This document shows positions 19,101 through 49,400 of a stretch of 64,000 nucleotides of DNA, piece after piece. Every line of letters starts with the position of its first letter. Within the stretch, counting starts at the first letter, position 1. Both the position numbers and the translations under genes were made by a program. The DNA is taken from the NCBI GenBank assembly GCA_023362775.1, contig JALMGJ010000003.1, positions 46,889,916 through 46,953,915 on the forward strand. The letters are read 5' to 3'. The notes under the pieces were generated by a model. The model did not search any database. It saw only the letters and a list, made by a program, of their open reading frames with translations, and was not told where the DNA came from. Source of the stretch: Charina bottae (lineage: Eukaryota > Chordata > Lepidosauria > Squamata > Charinaidae).

Positions 19101-22100
19101 GGTCAATCCACATTTGTCCCTAATAGATAAATTAATTATCCCTAATTAGATAAATTCCCTGAGAGTCCAGATAATTTTTATGTAAACTATCTTCTTCAGG
19201 ATCTAAAGCCATACATTACATGTGCAGTAGCTAAATTTTGTGTTGCTGCAATGAAAGTAAGACAAAACCGGTTAAAGAAGTAATCACCTTTGTTTTAAAT
19301 ATTATTTTTGAATTGATATATCTTAATTAATACATTGTTAGGGGATATATATTTTTTATTTTATACCTATTAATGTTTTAGATTTACATCACCTGGGTAA
19401 CAAATGTATCAATATAGTAATAAATGTGTGAATGCTATATTATTATATGATTTATTTTACTAGTTGATAGCATATTTTACTAGTTGATAGCATAAATAAG
19501 ATAAAAATAAATAAATATTATTGTATCTATTTGCTTCACTCTGTTTTTGTTCTTTTAAATGTTGCTGGTCATTGACCAAATAAATATTGATTGATTGATT
19601 GATTGATTGATTGAAGATACTCCAGAGGTGTTAGGGCTACAGCTCCCAGAAATCCTGGCCAATCAAGTCAGAATCTGGAGGGGAGCAGTTTAGGAAAGAC
19701 AGTTATATAACATAAAGTACAGCTCTGGATTTTACTTTTAGTTCACATAAAGTTTGGATTCCAGTGTGGTGCTTATGGTACTCATATGTCACAGCTACTT
19801 CTCTTGGCACTTACCAGGCTCATGCCTTCATTAAGAAGCTCTTAATTAAAAATAAATAAATGGGTAGCTTTTAAAAAAAAATTCGTTCAGTTGTGTCCGA
19901 TGCTTGGACATTGCCTGGACAAGTCCCTGCAGTTTTCTTGGCAAGGTTTTTCAGAAGTGGTTTACCACTGTCTGCTTCCTAGGGCTCAGAGAAAGTGACT
20001 GGCCCAAGGTCTCCCAGCTGGCTTTGTGCCTAGGCGGGACTAGAACTCATGGTCTCCCAGTTTCTAGCCTGATGCCTTAACCACTACACCAAACGGGCTC
20101 TCTAAATGGGTAGCTAGTATAATACAAAACAAAGCAGAGTCACAAGCATGATCTTTATTTCCAAGAATGTTACAGAATCTGCATATACTCTAGAGCAGGG
20201 GTCCCCAACCTTTTTGGCACCAGGGACTGGTTTCATGGAAGACAATTTTTCCACGGACTGGGGGTGGGGGATGGTTTCGGGATGATCCAAGTGCATTACG
20301 CTACAGGCAGCAGCTGGAGTTCAGGCGGCTGGAGTTCGGGCAATGGAGGTGCGCACGGCCAGGCTTCGATTTTCATGCCGTTTGCAAGCGGTAGCCAATC
20401 GGGCCTCACACTGCTCGGCCCGCCTCTCTAGCCTCCTTTGCCACATGCTGATAGGCGTAGGTGCTTCTGCTTCCTGGTCTCCTCCTATCAGCTGCTCCGG
20501 TTCAGGCTCGGCTTTCGTGCCTTCCCCGCCTCTTCCTGTTATCGGCTCCTCTTCTTCCGAGTCGGAGACCAGCATGGCAGCGAGGGAAGACTCATTCCGG
20601 GCAGTGCGGCCCAGTTCCTAACAGACCACAGACGGGTACTGGTCCACTGCCCGGGGGTTGGGGACCCCTGTTCTAGAGGCATTTTTAGAGAATAAAAATA
20701 GAAAGCTTTCTTTGGAAGTACGCCCACATGGCCAGGGGAAAAATGCCAGAGATAAGCTGAGGTGGTACAGAACATTATTTAAGATCAGCAAGAGAGAGAG
20801 AGGGCAAGAAGACCAACATCACCAGTTTGCCTTCTGGTCAATGGGTAATTTGGGAGAGACTATTTTGTAGTTTTGTATGGCTGTGAGAGTTGGACCATAA
20901 GGAAGGCTGAGCGCCGAAGAATTGATGCTTTCGAGCTGTGGTGCTGGAGAAGACTCTTAAGAGTCCCTTGGACTGCAAGGAAGTCAAATCAGTCAATCCT
21001 AAAGGAAATCACCCCTGACTGCTCATTGGAAGGACAGATGCTGAAGCTGAAGCTCAAATACTTTGGCCACCTAATGCGAAGAGAGGACTCACTGGAAAAG
21101 ACCCTGATGCTGGGAAAGACTGAAGGCAAAAGGAGAAGGGGACGGCAGAGGATGAGATGGTTAGATAGCATCACCGATGTAACAAATATGAATTTGAGTA
21201 AATTCCGGGTGACAGTGGAGGACAGGAAGGCCTGGCGTGCTATGGTCCATGAGGTCACGAAGAGTCGGACACGACTAAAGGACTGAACAACAACAATTTT
21301 GTAGTTCATAAATTCAACATTACCAATCTATCTGCTGCCTCCCAAAGGTTAAGAAACACTGATCTAATTGATCTTTACATAAATGGCTAGCTGGGCTAAT
21401 TTATTTGGAGATCAACATATGATCATAACCACCAAGTACAATTTTTACCTTGAGGAATGCACGGTATGACTGATGGTAACCACATAGCCCGCTCCTCCAA
21501 CATCTAAATATGGCCCAGTGAAGGTAATTAATCCTGGATTGGCCACTGCATGGAGGTACCTATCAGAAACAAAATAATCACCTTTAATATAATAGAATAA
21601 TTTCACATAACAAAAAATCTTGTAATATATGAGCTAGACCACTGGAATACAGAAAATTTTATGAATCCATGCACGTGCAGGCAATGTTTAAAATCAGTTG
21701 AAGTCACCTAATCCCTCTGGAACCCCATGTTCCATTTCAAATCTCTATCCTGTATTTCATGTTTTTTTTAAAGCCAGATATTTTTAGGATTGGAATGTGT
21801 CAATAATATAATGATGAATCCATAATTCCTGAAAGGTGACAGAGAAGCTTCAGAAGCAAAATTGGTGAGGATCATTTCAGAGAACTGTCCTAATGAACAG
21901 TAGCACTGAAAATATGAATGGCATTTTTCCTGTTTCAAGAATCTTTTCTGGAAATATTTAGAGCTTTGATATTTCTTGCTATTGTTGGGACAACCCTTCC
22001 ACTACCCCCCACTTCTGAACTTTTCTAATTTAAACAGGGTGGCTATAGCTACCTTGTTATAATTGGGTATGTAGAAATACCTGAACTCTAAAGAGAAGAG

Positions 22101-37100: not shown

Positions 37101-40100
37101 TGCCTTTTAAATGTCACATTACCCCAATCTGCTGTTCAACAGACCTCCTAAACAACATTTTTATTGTAGTGCCGCCATGAATGCCCTTAATTCACGAGGC
37201 ATGTAAAAACACTACACGTGCCTTTCCATTGCTTTTTAAAAGGATGACGCTCTTACCATCTCCCATTTCATCAGAAAAGGGCAAACTGAAGACGGCTTCA
37301 TCAATCATGTGGTTTGGGAGATTTGTATAAAACCGTCCGACTGTGGTTTCCAAATTGCTCAGCTGGTTCAGGACCATCATACTGCCCTTAGTTACAGGAA
37401 AAGCTGTTCGATCTGGCACTCCATACTTTGCTGAGTTTTGTTCTGCTAGATCTCGAAGAAATGCTAATTCTTTTAAGCCTGTCACTCCCTCTGCAAAAAG
37501 AGACGTTGCACATAAATGGAGAGGAAAATCAAAGCACGTAGTTTATGAAATTGTACTGAGCGCTCAAATGTGGAAATTATAAACTAGTCATTAGACAACT
37601 CAGTACATATATGAAAAAATAATTTTATTAGTATAGGCCATGCCTTCTGGAAATACTGAATACACAACTGAAAGAGCCTTAGCATTCCAAACACATCTTA
37701 CCATTCATGAGAGCATAAGTAAGGATCATTACAGAGTTGTTAAGCAAACTATTTTCTTCATTGATGACCCGAAGTGTTGTCTTTTTACTATCTTCAGTTG
37801 AATCCCTTGATGTTATTCCAGCTGATAAGTAAATTATGACTGTATCCGTGTCTAAGAAATATAAGAAGAGACCTGATGCACATATAATCTAACATACTAT
37901 GAAGTATTTGCAATAGTACATTGTCAATATTAAAATCACGGTTGTAATAAGTTGACTAGATTTCTCTTTGTCTTCAAAATACTCAAAGTTCTATTCCATC
38001 CAAAATTTAATGTCTCTAATTTTGGCACCCAATAAAAGAAACCTAAGTAGGCCAATGTTGGCCTAATTTCACCACCAAATTAAACAGAAATAAGCTAGTT
38101 ATCTAAGGTTACCTTCAAAAGACTGCTATGTATATATATTCCTCAGAATATTATACAACATCTAAAGTAAAAATATACCATCTTGTATTAACAATTCCTT
38201 TGTATTAACTTTCCATTTTTAGACTGGGGGATAAAGATTTAGGATCTCAATAAGGCAGTTAAGCTAGAGGAAAGGCAGAGTGTGTTCTCATCTTCTCTTT
38301 TTGATATAAAAAGACCACCTTTCTATTTTACTTTTCTACATACATGCATTTACTTTAGCCCTTTGACTGAGAAAGCAGGAAATATTTGTAAAAGAAGTAA
38401 AAAGCGGTGCATGTTTTTTAAACCATCCTTTTCAATACAATACCTTTGAGGGGAAAACACTTCAACCAAATTAACTTTGGATAATTTTAAGAATGCTATT
38501 TTCTGATGATGATGATTTATTAAATTTATATGCCTTCAATACAATACCTTTGAGGGGAAAACACTTCAACCAAATTAACTTTGGATAATTTTAAGAATGC
38601 TATTTTCTGATGATGATATTTATTAAATTTATATGCCACCCAACTCCCAGAAAGTCTGGGCGGTTTATAATTGTTAAAACATTTAAAAAGCAGAAAACAA
38701 TACAGAAAACACAAAAACAGCCCAAGACAAAGGGACAACGATGGCAGAGGGGAACAGAAAGGAAGAAGGGGGCATCAATCGTCCTCTCCAAAGGCCTGGG
38801 CGAAGAGCCAGGTCTTTAAGGCCCTTTGAAATTCCAGTAGGGTGGGGGCTGTTCAAATTTTGGGGAGGGGGGGAAACCTCATTCCAGAGGGCAGGTGCTG
38901 CTACCGAGAAGGCGCGCTTCTGGGGTCCTGGTAGGTGGCATTGTTTCATTGATGGAACCCAGAGCGTGCCAGCCCTGCCAGATCGAACTGCTAAGCAGCA
39001 TTCCTATGGCTTCCTCACAACCACTAAACAACAGCTCATGGAAAAACGTTCTGTGAGTCAGTGCCTGGAGAACACGCCATTAAGGGAATATAATTGACAT
39101 CAAATGGGTTGCCAAACACTACTATTATTAATATTCTCATAGCAGTAGTCTCCCTAGTTATGCTTTGATAACCAAAAATTGTTCTTAATTGCAATTATAT
39201 GCATCTTAATTTTTTTTACACATCTACCAACTTAGAATTTGGTGTACTCCAGTGTTTTCAGCCTCTCAACATTAATTTTCTACCATCAGCTAACTATTGC
39301 CTGCTGTTTTTTCCCTTGACTTACTGAATTACAGTAAAAGTTGCATGCCGATTTATAATTTTTGAAAGTCTCATGATGTCCCTAGAATTAAAGGAATTTA
39401 AGGAGCTAAATTAATTAGAGGATGTCCCTGTTTTTAATAGCTGAAAGGTATAAAAATGCCATATTTTCAGTGTCATTTCTTATCTCTTGTGCCAGGTATT
39501 TCTCAACAACGTTTTGCATCATAAATTTCCATTCAGTGGATTTGTTGAGGTACACGTTGAGCCTGCTGAGAAAGCAGGATGTTAAAAAGTCTCACAGTAT
39601 ACAAGACCAACCAGTTTTGTACTAGAAATGACAACAATCAAGAAGGTTGTTTATAAGGAAATGGAAGCACTTTGAACATCCTCTTCTGGAATGACCAAGC
39701 AGCATACCTCCTCAGTAATATAGCCTATGCTAATCTACAATACCTCAGATGCAAAACAAAGGGAGATGCTTCCAGAGTGCACTTTAAAAACCGTATGTAT
39801 GTATGTATGTATGTATGTATGTATGTATGTATGTAGAGAGAAAAATGCTTCTAATCTTGAGCTCATCTCAAAGCAATCGACTTTGTATGCAATGGATCAA
39901 TTTTTCACACCCAAAATGTGTGAAAAATGTAATCGTCGTTCATGCAAATGACACAGATTGCTGTAATGGTGTACTTTCCTATCTAACAGACATTCAGGAA
40001 TACAAACACCTCCTCCTGCTTAGTCTGCTTTAAGGAGTTGACTCATTATGCTATTAAATGAGCTGCATTATTTTTCAGGCTCATGTGGAAGCCTGAAGGG

Positions 40101-40445: not shown

Positions 40446-43400
40446 GTGTTTCTCCTTCACTCACACAGAAGTTTCTCCTTCAGATCATGCCAGTCTGGTT
40501 GTTCCAGGGCTGATCAGTCAGTTTCCCAGAAATTAATCTGACTTCTGGAAACCTACCAGGCTACCCCCAGAGCAACCAGATCAGTGTATTCCAGAGAAGA
40601 AAAGGAAAAGGATTGCTACCGGCTTTCTTCCAGATACATTGGCGAGGCCCACCTGCTTAGCTTTGTGCTGGAACTACAGTACATTTCATTCCTCCACATT
40701 ATTCTTTAGACTCCCTTATACAGTACATGTGGTCTTTGTACAATTATAAATATTAATTGGTATAATTAAACTTGGATGAAGCTAGGCAAGGTTGTCCATA
40801 GTTAGTACTTGGATGGGAGGCTACTAGGACATAACAAGGCTGTGTGTTTGAAAAAACACTTGAAGAAATGGAACAGCAAACAACTTCCATACTGTATCAC
40901 CATCCTGTACTTTTATGTTACTAACAGTATCTTGTAATCATTAAGGGATGAGAAATGATAAAGAAAGGTTAGTAGGTGGTGACAATAAATGAAGTTTCTT
41001 TGGGTTGCCGCAAAGACTAAGCTAAAAACAAAGCATTTCCCAAGTAATAATTCTAGTATTTAAAATGTTCTCTTCTCTTCTGCCCTGTTAAAAAGAAAAA
41101 TCCAGATCAAACAAGGAAGGAGAATGAATAAAAGATCAGGTGTAAAGATATTAATATTGTGTAACAATACACCTACTTGCTTGAAGTTTAGTGCTATTGT
41201 TTGTATTTCGCATCAATTGAAATGCTTTCTGAAATCCTGCTGCATGCTGGGTAGGGCTGTCAGATGATTTGATATTGCTAACAAAGGTGGACATTTTCCT
41301 TTTTGTCTCACTGGTGGCAGGAGACAGAAATGTCTTGTAGCACTGATCCAAGGAACAAGTTCTTACGGTGTCTGCCACAGTTAACACAGAGATCTGAAGA
41401 AGAAGAAAAGAAAATTACCTCCTGTTTAGAATTCCCTCTACAGCACACAGTATAATAAGACAATAGAAAAGTCTATTTGATTTTAAAATTCAATTGTTGA
41501 ATCAAAAATACTTAAGGTATAAATCTATCAAACTTGAGTATAGTTAGACTTATGAAAGATCTGGTGTTGGCCTTTATTTGTCAACAAAGTATTAATCCAT
41601 TTCTTATGTAAAATGTTTGCAATAATACTGAATCAGAAACTGTCACTGAATTTCCAGGTCCTAGCAATGAAAACATAGATCACAATAGGATATTATTTTA
41701 GGGAATAGATTATTTTAAGGAACAGGAAGGAGTGGAGACCCTAAGTTTTATGAGGCCCTTGAATGAAATTCAAAGAAACCATCTTATTTGCAGTAACTAT
41801 GGAAGTAAGTTTGTTTATAGACAAGTAAGTCCATCTTTTTCTCCAGAATACGTATCAGCAAGAGGCTATAAGTACACATGCCATAGAGTCTCTCCTCCAA
41901 CGCCACTTCCAAAATTCAGTATGAAAGGAACTAAAGCTGTCTCATCTTATTTTTTTCTCTTCTTCTCTGAGATATTCAGATTATACCCAAACCTCCTTCA
42001 ACTTTGCCTTGCCATATTTGAAGCTTGAGAGAAAGAGAGTGAGGAACAACTAATACTGGCTCCTGAACAGCTTTTGAGCACTTCCATAGCAAACTAATGA
42101 ATGACAGGTAGGCTGACCATACATCCCATTTTGAACAGGACAGTCCCGTTTTTTTTAACATTTCCGGACCGTCCCGTTATTTTAATATAAAAGTCAATTT
42201 TGTCCAGTTTTTTAAGAAACCTGTCAGGAACTAGCCTGTCCCTGCTGCCAGGCCAGACTCCAAGAGCCGGAACCGAGAGCCGGAAGTAGCTGGAGCAGCA
42301 CGAAAGAGCCAGAGCAGCTGACTGGAGGGAACCAGGAAGAGGAATCGCCTCCGCCTATCAGCGGAGGCAAAGGAGGTGGGAGAGGCAGGCCGAGCAGCGC
42401 GATAGGCGGAGGTGATTCCTCTTCCAGGTTCCCTCCAATCAGCTGCTCTCTCTCTTTTGCGCCGCTCAAGCTACTTCCAGTTCTCGGTTCCTCTTGTCCC
42501 GTTTTTGTCTCAAGGAAATATGGTCATCCTAATGACAAGGCAATCCTAAGCTTCTGTGGTAGCGGTTGAGTGAAGAGGCAAATCATTTGCCACTTCTTCT
42601 TTTTTTAATAAGAATTTTATTAAGTTTAAAGCAAAGATAAAAACTACAAACAAACAAAAAACTACAAGAAAAAGAAAAAGAAAGAAACTAAAAAGTGAGA
42701 AACACAAGAAGAAAAGAATTTTAAAGATTACATAAAGAGGTGACTTCCGACTTTTAACAGCAAGAATATATAGCAATTTGCATAATCAAACCCTTACTCT
42801 ATATCAAACCAAAATCCCATTATTTCTATAAATCATTCCATTAGCACATTATGAAAATCACTAAATACAATTGTTCCCTCTCCTTACATTAAAAGAAAAA
42901 GAAACATATAAACCTCCTAATCAACTTCCTCCCCCAAAGACAACATTTACTTAATTATTTCCTTCCTACCACTATTCTATACATTTCTGTCTACTACAGT
43001 GCTTTCCAAACTGCCGCCGTTGGCGACACACCAATGGCGGTGGCGGCAGCGCACCGCACGGCGGTGCGGGGGGGTGCGTGGCAGCAGCGTGCACGGTGGT
43101 GGCAGCGGCCTCTCTAAAACGCGGAAGCGCTGATGGAGCGGCACTGCCATTTGTCGCGACACACCGTTTGGAAAGCTATGGTCTACTATAATAGAAATCA
43201 AACTTAAAAAATGTATAAATTGTCTACTTTTATAATTAATAATACTATAACAATCTTAACCTTATTAACCCTAAAACCAAACAATTATTATTATACCTTA
43301 TAAGTCTTAACTAATCATTAAGAATAAAAACAAACCTTTAAAACAATCCAATTAATCTTAATCCAAATCGTTAAAAAAGAATAGAATCATACAAGCCTTA

Positions 43401-46400
43401 AAAGCAGTCCAAATAAACATTCTTAAATCTTTACCCCACTTCAAAATATACCAGAGCGTTTACATATCTCCATAATACACACAAGGCATCTTTCATAAAA
43501 AAATCAAACAGCCCAACTGCCCCCCTTAGAAACTCAGACTTCTCAGCAGAAAACCTCCCACAAAGCAAAGTCTCTTTTTTCCCATAACATTCCACCGGAA
43601 AAACAATTCCATTTGTGATTTGCGATTCGGTCTGTGCTTTTAACTCCTTCAGCACCAAAATCTGGTCGTCATCATCCGGCACAACAAAAGCTTCAATTTT
43701 GCTGTCAGTAGAAACATCTCCATCTTCACTAGAATCAACTTTTTCCACAACCCCCTCAACCAGATGAAACATTTTAAAGCTGATATTTTCTACAATGTCC
43801 CAGATATCTTGAATAATAGCTTGACAGGAATCAGAGAAAATCTGTTTGATCTCACAAGGAAGCTCAGAGAATGTCTGCTTAAAATCCTCCATGTTACAGG
43901 CAGTAGATTATGGCGCCCCCTAGATCAGGGGTCGGCAAACTTTTTATGCCGGGAGCCATTTTGACATGCTCGTGCACATTTTGAAATGCTCGAGAGCCAG
44001 GGGGCGGGGGCCAATCGCGTGGAAGGGGGCGGGGTTTGCGGGCAGGGGCCAATCACGTGGAAAGGGGCGGGGTTTGCAGGCGGGAGCCAATCACACGGCT
44101 TATTGGGGCAGGTGGGAGGGCGAATCTGTTTGGGAGGGTCGGGGGTCCTCCTCGGCGAGCCCGGCCTCCAGAGCGGGGCATGTCTGGCCGGGCAGAGCGG
44201 GCGCAGGGGAGCCGCACAGGCGCTGAGGGGGGCGGGCCCGGCGGCGGAGGCCCGGGCCGCCCACCCACCCCGCCCGCTTGCCTGCCTGCTTGCCTCCCTC
44301 CGGAGGGGGCCCGGCGGAGGAGGAGGAGGCCCGGGCCGCCCGCCCACCCACTCGCCCGCCCGCTCACTCGCTTACCTGCCTGCTTGCCTCCCTCCGCGAG
44401 GCCCCCCGCTGCCTTCCCGGGATCCAAGCCGGAGAGAAAGGGCGGCGGCGGGGCCGCGCTACCGGAGCGCCCGAGTGCCAGACAGGCAGCTCCGCCCACG
44501 CGCCTTCCACGCAATCGGCCCGTGAGGACCGACCAGGGAAGGCGCGCGGGCGGAGCTCCCGTCCCGCTGCACCCCAGCCGGAGCGCCCGAGTGCCAGGCA
44601 GGCAGCTCCGCCCGCACGCCTTCCCTGGCTGGTCCTCGCGGGCCGCCGGCGATGCACCCGTCCCGCTGCACCTCTCCAGCTCATCGGCCACCCGCCGCAG
44701 CGTCTCGGCCGTGCGGCTGGGGGGCAGCGCCGCATCTCCCAGCCGGTGCTGCAGGTAGTCGCCCAGCAGCTGCGCTGTCTCCTCTAGCAGCGCGCCCAGC
44801 ATGGCGACGCTCTCCTGCCTGCCTGGCAAGCGCTTGGGGGGGGCGGCGGCGGCCGTTGCAACGCGGGCGGAGGAAGAGGTGGCGGCGGCGACCAACCAAC
44901 TTCCCCACCCGCCGACCTCGAAGAAGCGCTGCCCGACTCTGGAAGGCTCCCGAGGGCAGGAGGAGGAAGAATCAATCGCCCTCCTCCAGCGCCGGCCCTC
45001 AGAGTTTGGGGGCGGGATCCAATCGCGTGGAAGGGGCAGGGGTGAGTTCAGCTGCGGAAGAGCCACACTCAAGGGGCCAAAGAGCCGCATCTGGCTCATG
45101 AGCCGCCATTTCCGACCCTTGCCCTAGATACTTAACTGGCAAAAGTAGGAGTTAATAGAAGATTTCTGGCAATGTTTACAAAAGTAAAAGTGGTAAGGGA
45201 CAACTTCCCAGAGAAAGTAGCAACAGAGAGCTGATGATTCAAAACAGCAGATTCAACATGTAGGGAAAAATCAAATTGTTCAAATTCAGTACAAAAATAA
45301 TAGCAGTCCTCCTTAATATTTAAATGGTGAAACAAGCCAAAACTTTGAAAGATTTTTAAAAATTAATCCAAAAAAATAATGATAAGCACCAAGAGAGAAC
45401 GCTTCTCCTTGCTGTACAAAGCCTCTCTTGGGGTACATAAACTTAAAAAAATATAAATTGGGTGATTTAGGAATGAGGTGGTTCGACTTAGTGTCCCTTT
45501 AAGACTACAGCGCAGTTTGGAAATGATGTCGTCCCAGCCTCCCGGCGTCTCTTACCGGATTATCACTAATGCTGTTCACGATCCTCTGGCTGCGAGGCGC
45601 CGTTCTGGAGTACAAATGGGATGATTCTGAGCGTTTTCTGTCCATGAAATTGCTCTAGGGCTTCAGGAAAAGCCTGCCTGAGCCCATAAAAAAGCCACGT
45701 TGTCAGATCTGCCTGCGGAGCTCGCGGGCACAGCTGTTCAGTCGGCCATATCCCCACCGGAAGTCCATCATTTGCCACTTCTAAAGTCCCTCAGGTTAAG
45801 GATTTCCAGCTCAGGTGGCATGCATGTTGAGTAGACTTACTTTTCCTTTTCACCAGCTGAGTTTCTATTTTTCTTTCCCACTGATATCAAAGGAATAGAC
45901 ATTCTTTCTGCCAAACTGAGACTGGGGTAAAGAAGAGGACCACCCTACAGGTTCATTAGGCAATGGAGATATTCTGTTTCCTGTCCCTCCCCCTCTGAAT
46001 ATTTGGGGTCCAAGCAGACAACAGGGGACTTTACACTAATAGAACCTTCTGTGTAGCTTTACACTCGTAGAACCTTCTGCGGGCAATTATTTATTTATTT
46101 ATTTATTCGATTTATCAACGCCCAACTCCCTCAAGGGGACTCTTGTATATGATTCATCCCAGCACCAATCCCATTCCCAAAGTTGTTCTTTCTCCCAATA
46201 CTTTTGCCACCTAGGCAAACATCTGAAGGATGTTCTGACTTACCATTCTGAGTTAACTCACCTTATCATGTTCATCTATTGAGTTCAGAATAACCTGGGC
46301 TGCATCTTTAGCAATCTGCAGTTGTGTTTCTGTAACTGAAGCTCCATGATCTATAATAACAGCTACATGCTTAGACTGAGGTCTAACTGTAGAGACGTAG

Positions 46401-49400
46401 ACAGGCCTAAAAATAAAGTTACAGGATGCTGCACTTTAAATTGATGAAGAGAATTATAAGAGAGTGGAGTCAAGAAGTTTCTTGCATTGTCCAAAGACAT
46501 TCATTGAATTAACTGTGTGCTAAACTTATGTTTATGGACTTATTTTGGTTTTAGCAAATTACAGATCAGCCATTGACTTGCTTGCTTTCCAGAGCACCTC
46601 ATTTCTAAAAACTGCAATAATAGTGACATACCAGGATTTTTGAGAGGACAAAAATGGTAAAGAATTAGAAGGGCAATGTTCTGGCCAGAATTAGCTGAAC
46701 AGCAGTTTGATTGGCATGCCAACAGTACAACCCTAAAAATCTTTACTCAGAAGTAAAGATATAAAATTTCTGGACATTTTAAATAACTATAAAAATTTTC
46801 TTCCTGTTCCCCACCCACAAAGCTGGAAATGTTGGGGATAAAATATGGCAATAATTTTTAAAGCATCCTTTACAAATAGTCACTTTGTTACTTCACAGCG
46901 TGTTATTATATTTGCTAATTAAATCTTTATTAATTTTGCTTTAAAAAGTTTTCAGTTTTTGTTCCAAGCAAAGCTACATCCTGCTCAACCTCAAGGAATA
47001 TAGCAAGTCTATGCTTTTGCATGTTCAAGGGATGCAGGCAAAAAAGTAACCCTGAAAACAGTAGAAACAATTGGCATTGTAGCAACCCCAAAAGATGATT
47101 TTCTTCAGATACAGAATGCATTGATTATCATTGGAAAAAAGCCAAGCATTCAGACAAGCTTCTCTATCCTTTCACATTAGTTTATTTTTACAGTTAAGTC
47201 TATTTCCAAACATAGATCAATCATATGTTGACTATTTTATCATTTAAAAAAGGAAATAATAAGAAATTTTTCATAATTTATATTCCCCCCAAATGTTGCC
47301 CTTCATGTTTCTATTCAGAAATCCTATTGTATTCTGTCCTCTTACTTCCATGTAAGTAGATGCCAGCTGATGCCTTCTACAATCCATCACCTCCAACTTT
47401 AATCCAACTATACTGGGATGAGTTATACTGATTTATCTTAATACAGCCTTTGGTATCCACTTTAGTAATAGTACAACTAATGATAGTGTTTAGATCATTA
47501 GAAACATTTTTTACGAATAATCACTTTCATAAAATAGAATTGTAACATAGCCTGTTGGCATCATCTGATGCACTGATTCTGAATTAGGCAGAGAAATTAA
47601 TACAATATAATATAGTTGCTGGCATGTTAAAAGACTGTGTAAGGAGTGTAAAATTGTATTACTGCATTAGGCTTAAGGTTTTTTTTTTCATCATGAATAA
47701 AAGTCTGATGTCAAGACCAACTTTTCTATTAGCAGTGTGGAATGTAAACCATATAGGACATGCTATGCAACACTTTTATCTGCAGAAACTACTTTTTAAA
47801 GGGTTTATTAAATTTTTTAACAGCATAGAATATTTCCATGTTAAAAATGGCATAAGGGAGGACAGGACAATTGCCGTTTATTTTCTCCTGGATTGAGAAT
47901 CTAAAAGAAACTACAGGTGGTTCTTGTTTAACAACCACTCGTTCAGCAACCGTTCAAAATTTGTGATGGCACTGAATGAGTGGTAGTTATGACCAGTCCT
48001 CGAAGTTTCAGCTGTTGCAGCACCCCATCGTCACGGCAGGAAGTCAGAAGTCACGATTGCGTGAGGTCCTCACTTAACAACCGTAAACCAGGGGCTGCCA
48101 GAACTGCGGTCATTGAGTGGCGTGGTCACATGACATTGCGCTTTATGACTGCATCACTTAGCAATGGAAATTCCAGTCCCAATTATGGTCGTTAAGCGAG
48201 GACTACCTGTAATGTTAATGGAGGAAATTAAAAAGGCAATCTGTATCTCATACACTGGAAGATGGTGGTAGGCTAAACTCTGCATCATGCTACTCTTCTC
48301 ATATGACAAGACTAGAAGCTAAATTCTCTACTGGAATGATATTACTAATACAAGCTATTTATATCTGCAAAATGCTTATACCAAAATCATACCTGCTGCG
48401 GTGTTCATAATTGCCTTTACATCGGAATTTGTGAGCTGGAAACACAGTAAAAATGCCTTCTTCTGAACTAAAGTACTGCCATTTAATTCCAGGATTTGAT
48501 TTCAAATTGTCAGCAAGGACTATTAAAAATAGAATAAAATAGAAAAGGAAATTAACAGTATTATAAGAAGAGGGAAAAAACAACTTACACGCTGTTTAAA
48601 AGTTTCCTTAGTACAGCACCAGGTTGTCTGAAATGATACATCATCTAGATTACTTTCAGCAGGAACATATGTGAATGTCCAATTGCCATTAACCATCAGC
48701 CTACTTTATTTTCATGTGTTTAATAACCTATGATGCATGATGTTGCCCTCATTAAACTCGGTACATAGTTCCTACTGTTATTCTTTTCAGCAAATATTAA
48801 GGTCCAGAGGCTACATCCAGAACTGCAAGACCCAATGCTGAGATAAACCAACAAATCTGCAAGATTATCCTATGGAATAAAGAATAAGGGTGACTTCCTT
48901 GGAGGAAAATTTTGGTATCCTGTATCTCAGATTTTATACCGTTACGACAGAACATATATTTGCAAAATAACAGGGAGGTTATGCTATGCTAATATGTGAA
49001 ACAAAGGAACTTTACAAACCTTTCTGATAATGGACAAAAAAACACATTAAGGAAACCAAATTTTAGGATTTGAGAATAATCGGCTTGCATTCCTGCCTCT
49101 GAACTAGAATGAAAATGTTCATCCAAATAGAGGTTATATCATCTGCTGTATTTTAGTGCTGCTATTATAGAGTTCAATTTGCTAGAATATTAACAAGCAG
49201 ACAGTTATAAGGGAAATAGATTTGGTTGATTTAAAAAAGGAACAAGGCAGCTCTCCAGTCAAGAATATTTTAGAAATGGCTGAGGAACACTAAGATGTTG
49301 GTGACCCATGCAGCTCACAAAGCCCTTGATGCGTCATGGTGACAGTTACACATTTTCCTTCCTGTGGCTATGTAGATACTGATCATTTCATAGACAGTCA

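Follow-up and report, generated by a model that had tools for sequence, protein, structure and literature searches.

A non-autonomous hAT family in a snake genome carries the start of BCL2L10, very probably captured once, amplified and shortened in steps

The 64-kb stretch of DNA analyzed here (the window) contains a non-autonomous hAT-type element that encloses the beginning of a host gene, BCL2L10, and close relatives of this element are found throughout the genome of the same snake. We consider it very likely that a piece of BCL2L10 exon 1 was captured a single time by a snake non-autonomous hAT, which was then mobilized in trans and amplified while the captured piece was truncated stepwise from its 3′ side. 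The core of the initial annotation, that a hAT-like element with a captured BCL2L10 start and upstream DNA has been spreading in a reptile genome, is borne out by an alignment to the native gene and by a count of copies.

The element occupies positions 43926..45121 of the window (1196 bp, 72% G+C, no strand assigned). The near-inverted ends and perfect 8-bp duplications first reported for it are both present: the left terminal inverted repeat, CAGGGGTCGG (43926..43935, plus strand), pairs with the right one, CCGACCCTTG (45112..45121, minus strand), at nine of the first ten bases, and the target site duplication CCCTAGAT is identical over all 8 bp at 43918..43925 and 45122..45129 (both plus strand). 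Terminal inverted repeats in the hAT superfamily span 5–27 bp by definition (PMC3517528, in its available text), and the short repeats of the window copy agree with this. Inside the left end lie two copies of a 43-nt subterminal repeat (CCAATC.CGTGGAA..GGGGCGGGG; 43993..44073, plus strand), a third copy of which is found close to the right end (45001..45043, plus strand). An element-specific repeat, present twice (44462..44671, plus strand), directly adjoins the captured BCL2L10 DNA on its 3′ side.

The insertion sits in an intron of CACHD1, a minus-strand gene, between the open stretch of the exon lying 5′ of the element (46256..46435, corresponding to residues 228–279 of human chain 8s7c_A) and that of the next exon (41154..41414, residues 277–354). 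A further CACHD1 open stretch is found at 37195..37542 (minus strand, residues 395–481). The captured ATG is oriented in the sense of CACHD1. There is no second copy of the BCL2L10-bearing element in the 64-kb window, where the sole other end-like match, at 20196 with three mismatches, belongs to a different element. This second, unrelated hAT-like element (20196..20670) has perfect inverted ends, CAGGGGTCCCCAACC, flanks that are alike at seven of eight positions (CTCTAGAG and TTCTAGAG) and an acidic open frame on the minus strand. The window also holds an open frame at 20849..21283 (plus strand), for which Pfam gave nothing and which resembles the 3′-terminal part of a BovB LINE, and a 158-codon open frame adjoining the insertion (43434..43907, minus strand, ATG at 43892), which has no Pfam family above the cut-off and is possibly part of another transposon. 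Related repeats whose translations have phrases in common occur at about 10.9–11.5, 18.6–19.0, 30.5–30.9 and 51.4–51.9 kb. In all, Pfam returned nothing above its curated cut-off for eight window and transposon frames, and an Rfam scan of the window returned 0 families. Element DNA patterns had 0 matches in viral contigs in two runs, which says little because that collection holds no reptile DNA.

The captured BCL2L10 DNA is 225 bp long (44672..44896, minus strand) and corresponds to native positions −100 to +130, counted from the A of the ATG. A nucleotide alignment with BCL2L10, which the initial annotation had proposed, was made with the host's native gene and gives 92.6% identity over 231 columns. 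The coding part consists of the ATG and codons 2–43 (44673..44802, minus strand), and is preceded by captured DNA 5′ of the start codon (44803..44896, minus strand) that represents 5′ UTR and perhaps proximal promoter. As the native match starts at −100, about 100 bp of DNA upstream of the ATG were carried along. Since the window copy stops at codon 43, the BH1–BH3 region, BH2 and the membrane anchor are absent from it.

That a minus-strand ATG and about 44 codons starting at 44802 match BCL2L10 is confirmed at the protein level. In tblastn with 24 squamate BCL2L10 N-termini the element scored 77.0 bits, against a maximum of 28.9 in 200 dinucleotide shuffles. When the window was searched by tblastn with 58 BCL2L10 proteins, collected as matches to an approximate chicken sequence with one herpesvirus match omitted, the top score went to the boa Candoia aspera (E 1e-20). 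The likeness had been described as one to avian NR-13/BCL2L10; the gene was correctly named, but snake and worm-lizard proteins are closer than avian ones. A search of a 5.8-billion-protein database with the fragment, slightly extended by neighboring sequence, yielded 38 candidates, 15 of them with E ≤ 1, and all 15 are squamate BCL2L10. The top match in the PDB is also BCL2L10, at an E-value (0.021) that is weak by itself, and Pfam recognizes Bcl-2 neither in these 44 residues nor in the 348-residue frame to which they belong. The similarity does stop at ELER, as had been observed, but the R of this motif is made by the junction, since the match covers just the first two bases of codon 44 (native GAGAGC, element GAGAGG). 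The open frame of 348 codons, previously thought significant, is barely above chance, being equaled in 19 of 500 dinucleotide shuffles, and we rejected it as the sign of a gene.

Protein comparison can be misled by DNA as G+C-rich and low in complexity as this element, and the likeness might then be accidental, or the segment might be ancestral sequence of the transposon family itself and not BCL2L10. Such an explanation has next to no probability. Chance similarity is ruled out by the gap between the element's bit score and those of the shuffles, the DNA identity to the native gene includes the upstream region, and longer copies of the element extend the match to codon 127. Within what was searchable, the segment is thus similar to a BCL2L10 first exon and is not the family's own ancestral sequence, the two points on which the initial annotation would have failed.

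The donor of the captured fragment is the host's own BCL2L10. The genome searched was the window's own assembly (1.804 Gb in 278 contigs, with the window at C201:46889916-46953915), in which the native exon 1 lies at C2:16698232-16698639 and exon 2 at C2:16690429-16690557. When the protein encoded by this exon 1 was compared with 60 BCL2L10 proteins, that of Candoia aspera came closest, at 97.8% identity, which makes a boa-like snake the probable host. No element ends were found around the native locus, so that the parental DNA, on C2, lies outside the element, as is required of a Pack-TIR. A search of the assembly with the Candoia protein gave 787 candidates, of which the best 150 were scored and all 150 match. 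These 150 comprise the native exons, six copies that reach about residue 127, at least about 30 that reach about residue 95, and shorter ones, and among them residues 136–178 occur only in the native gene.

Copies that carry the fragment, whose number the initial annotation had wished to see counted, are abundant: the 3′ junction of the window copy alone is found at 293 places genome-wide (142 forward and 151 reverse, using a 29-base pattern with up to three mismatches), against 0 for a reversed-pattern control. In a search with the full element, the best 40 of 5683 candidates were scored, and all 40 span the captured fragment. Fifty-nine copies (L001–L028 and L030–L060) were studied individually; these are the top-scoring ones and not a random sample. 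Under a strict test both ends are present in 45 of the 59, with lengths from 844 to 2905 bp, and the captured DNA is accordingly enclosed by both ends of a single element, a further requirement for a Pack-TIR. In ten copies an end was unrecognized or lay beyond the fetched stretch, and four with irregular ends were left out of the duplication count (one of these has 8/8 matching positions, two have 7/8 and one 3/8).

The target site duplications are perfect over 8 bp in 42 of the 45 two-ended copies and alike at seven of eight positions in the remaining three. Thirty-nine of the 42 perfect duplications are distinct, as in a multicopy Pack-TIR, and 39 of the 42 have the form nnnTAnnn, with a central TA. 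Among 28 copies, 20 are two-ended, all 20 have perfect duplications and 19 of these have the central TA. Distinct, perfect duplications at so many places indicate true transposition. Two copies on C110, at about 6.77 and 6.46 Mb (L032 and L033), have an identical duplication, GTCTAAAG, and are inverted relative to each other at a distance of 310 kb; they are one insertion, duplicated together with the surrounding genome segment.

These counts bear on whether the fragment instead entered an element that was already inserted, by gap filling at this place only and without transposition. Most animal cases in print are indeed single-copy (PMC8277862, as far as its available text goes), but a junction repeated at 293 places and flanked by distinct duplications is incompatible with such an origin; we rejected single-copy gap filling for the BCL2L10-bearing family and regard it as extremely improbable for the copy in the window. 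Gap repair could, on the other hand, have brought about the initial capture event itself.

All 59 copies fall into four classes according to the 3′ breakpoint of the captured piece, at about codons 127, 94, 61 and 43. In class 1 (n = 6, about codon 127) the 3′ edge varies from +363 to +405, with three copies at +382 and the others at +363, +376 and +405. The edge is more uniform in class 2 (n = 13, about codon 94), at +283 in 11 copies and +281 in two, and lies at +182 in all 12 copies of class 3 (about codon 61). Class 4, the shortest, includes the window copy (n = 28, about codon 43) and has its edge at +130 in 27 copies and at +128 in one. On the 5′ side, 52 of the 59 copies, from all four classes, share an edge at native −100, and the other seven have it elsewhere. 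In the copies displayed, at most six per class, the sequence past the breakpoint differs between classes and is common within a class, except for the class-1 copy L031. At the class-1 junction, an in-frame TGA directly follows codon 127.

Compared with the native gene, the class consensus sequences carry E46K in classes 1–3 (class 4 ends before E46), G23D in classes 2–4, and P2L together with a silent change in codon 9 (ACA9) in classes 2 and 4. This nesting is consistent with a single captured piece of about 483 bp that was later truncated. It could be argued instead that related elements captured BCL2L10 separately, once for each 3′ breakpoint class, as each of the four breakpoints is followed by different sequence and, in a tree of the 231-bp region, all 12 class-3 copies form a clade of their own (support 99/98). 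Separate captures would hardly be expected to share one 5′ edge, or the derived changes E46K and G23D, across classes, and we judge several captures very unlikely. A single capture and the order of truncation are what the shared edge and nested changes suggest. The tree itself is poorly resolved, with 35 of 57 inner branches weak, classes 2 and 4 mixed, and one class-1 copy (L030) placed away from the other five, which the native gene joins (94/86). Gene conversion or repeated truncation may thus have occurred.

The mean divergence of copies from their class consensus is 3.9, 2.5, 3.1 and 2.6% for classes 1 to 4, respectively, and such low values point to a young family. Horizontal transfer is a known trait of hAT elements, and the host gene is matched by the copies at just 90.5–96.4%, so the captured piece might have come from another squamate with a horizontally transferred transposon. 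Against this, the native gene groups in the tree with five of the six class-1 copies, and DNA comparison within the host genome places the longest versions in that genome. Acquisition from another squamate is therefore unlikely in our view, and a capture within the snake lineage remains the preferred reading.

We propose that the family arose as follows. Most simply, a single capture at the DNA level would have taken about 483 bp of host BCL2L10 exon 1, from −100 to codon 127, probably by template switching or gap repair. A transposase acting in trans would then have moved and amplified the element; a hAT partner gene with ends CAGGGGTCGGCAAACT is predicted. Rearrangements inside copies may subsequently have removed more and more of the captured piece at the 3′ side, so that it ended near codon 94, then 61, then 43. 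At least the codon-43 form, to which the window copy belongs, appears to have spread to about 300 places, and some copies of this shortest class would additionally have gained a WDR46-like exon with flanking intron sequence.

This last step concerns a 115-nt exon-like insert that is present at seven of 60 loci (L005, L008, L009, L010, L017, L022 and L026), all of the shortest class, and is 97–100% alike among them. It is preceded by AG in five of the seven loci and followed by GT in six. Against the PDB, its translation best matches human WDR46 (E 0.0016), followed by the fungal Utp7, which we take to be the WDR46 counterpart, at an E-value of 3.8 that is not significant alone; Pfam found nothing in this exon. 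The insert thus looks like part of a second gene, WDR46-like as judged from one PDB match, and its intron-like flanks indicate that DNA, not processed RNA, was captured. Its presence in some shortest-class copies suggests that the family took up host DNA more than once. Seven copies (L016, L020, L021, L023, L025, L027 and L028) share a different block of 1.1 kb inside the element, 98–99% alike and lower in G+C than the rest, that is perhaps another captured host region.

A separate matter is whether the captured start is under selection, with the upstream region and ATG giving rise to chimeric transcripts or to a short protein that contains BH4. In 26 of the 28 copies of the shortest class the reading frame stays intact over the whole captured piece (counted by eye in the translations), the CpG observed/expected ratio is 0.80 in the element against 0.35 in the window, and the window copy lies in the sense of CACHD1. 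In addition, ratios of non-synonymous to synonymous private changes are 1.38, 1.27, 1.57 and 1.47 in classes 1–4, below the 1.94, 2.01, 2.15 and 1.99 expected under a CpG-weighted neutral model with weights of our own choosing. This deficit, judged from the raw ratios, speaks mildly against pure neutrality in every class; classes 1–3 were ranked by protein similarity, which favors a deficit. On the other side, young copies retain frames regardless, stop codons are present in 3/6, 1/13, 1/12 and 0/28 copies of classes 1–4, and CpG transitions account for 210 of the 310 private coding changes, a pattern expected where DNA is methylated and decaying. Nor was any chimeric protein found among the 38 candidates from the 5.8-billion-protein database, and the 348-codon frame is marginal. 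Selection for the BCL2L10 start is on balance quite unlikely, and the pattern of changes suggests that the captured fragment is passenger DNA with no selected function.

Gene capture by hAT elements in animals is published, so that the kind of event described here is already known. The initial annotation considered it rare in vertebrates, which does not hold: across 100 animal genomes, Tan et al. (2021) reported 370 Pack-TIRs, and hATs account for 208 of these (PMC8277862, available text). The same text lists four multicopy animal Pack-TIRs, three in a frog and one in an alligator. For such multicopy cases it proposes that replication forks switched and the elements then transposed, whereas single copies are put down to gap filling (PMC8277862). 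The BCL2L10-bearing family is of the multicopy kind. It shares with animal hAT Pack-TIRs the hAT-type ends, 8-bp duplications that are distinct at each place and a piece of host DNA inside, and in Pack-hAT-N8_XT of Xenopus the piece is likewise from a 5′ gene region, the CAPSL 5′ UTR; however, that element is given at three places (PMC8277862, available text), whereas in the snake family one junction alone is found at 293, the truncations form four nested classes, and some copies hold another gene-like insert. What is new lies in the copy number, the staged erosion and this second insert. Our literature search found no report of BCL2L10 in a transposon, nor of a Pack element in a snake.

Among vertebrates, the Helitrons of bats have also spread captured starts of host genes to high copy number, although these are rolling-circle elements and leave no target duplications. 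The Pack-MULEs and Pack-TYPE elements of plants (see PMC8903248) are likewise non-autonomous, multiply exon pieces, and have G+C-rich inserts and 5′ gene ends; the present case differs in its vertebrate host, its hAT superfamily and the stepwise erosion of the captured piece during expansion. With regard to the ends, there is a resemblance to Mar MITEs of Drosophila, in the Buster group of hATs, whose terminal repeat CAG(G/A)GGTAGGC is similar to CAGGGGTCGG and whose duplications have the same nnnTAnnn form, the Buster consensus (PMC3517528). Membership of the snake family in this group is suggested by its duplications, 39 of 42 perfect ones having that form. Mar MITEs derive from internal deletion of their own transposase element, and capture of host genes is not mentioned in the available text (PMC3517528).

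More broadly, the family may still be alive and shuffling genes, having first taken up the BCL2L10 5′ end (upstream DNA, start codon and BH4 region), and then WDR46-like and other DNA. It would have seeded a start codon with upstream sequence at no fewer than about 300 places, some of them intronic and in the sense of the gene as in CACHD1, with chimeric transcripts and short BCL2L10-derived products arising from some copies. We offer this wider picture tentatively and hold it to be doubtful as a whole. A more immediate consequence is a trap for annotation, as hundreds of loci that lack the gene nevertheless show a BCL2L10-like start.

Cut-and-paste gene capture in animals has so far been recorded mostly as single, dead events. 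Here a single genome contains the donor, the capture in its longest form, three derivatives of decreasing length and some 300 amplified end products, which makes capture, erosion and spread open to dating and testing. With such a family in hand, one can test whether animal hATs are able to behave like the Pack elements of plants on a large scale.
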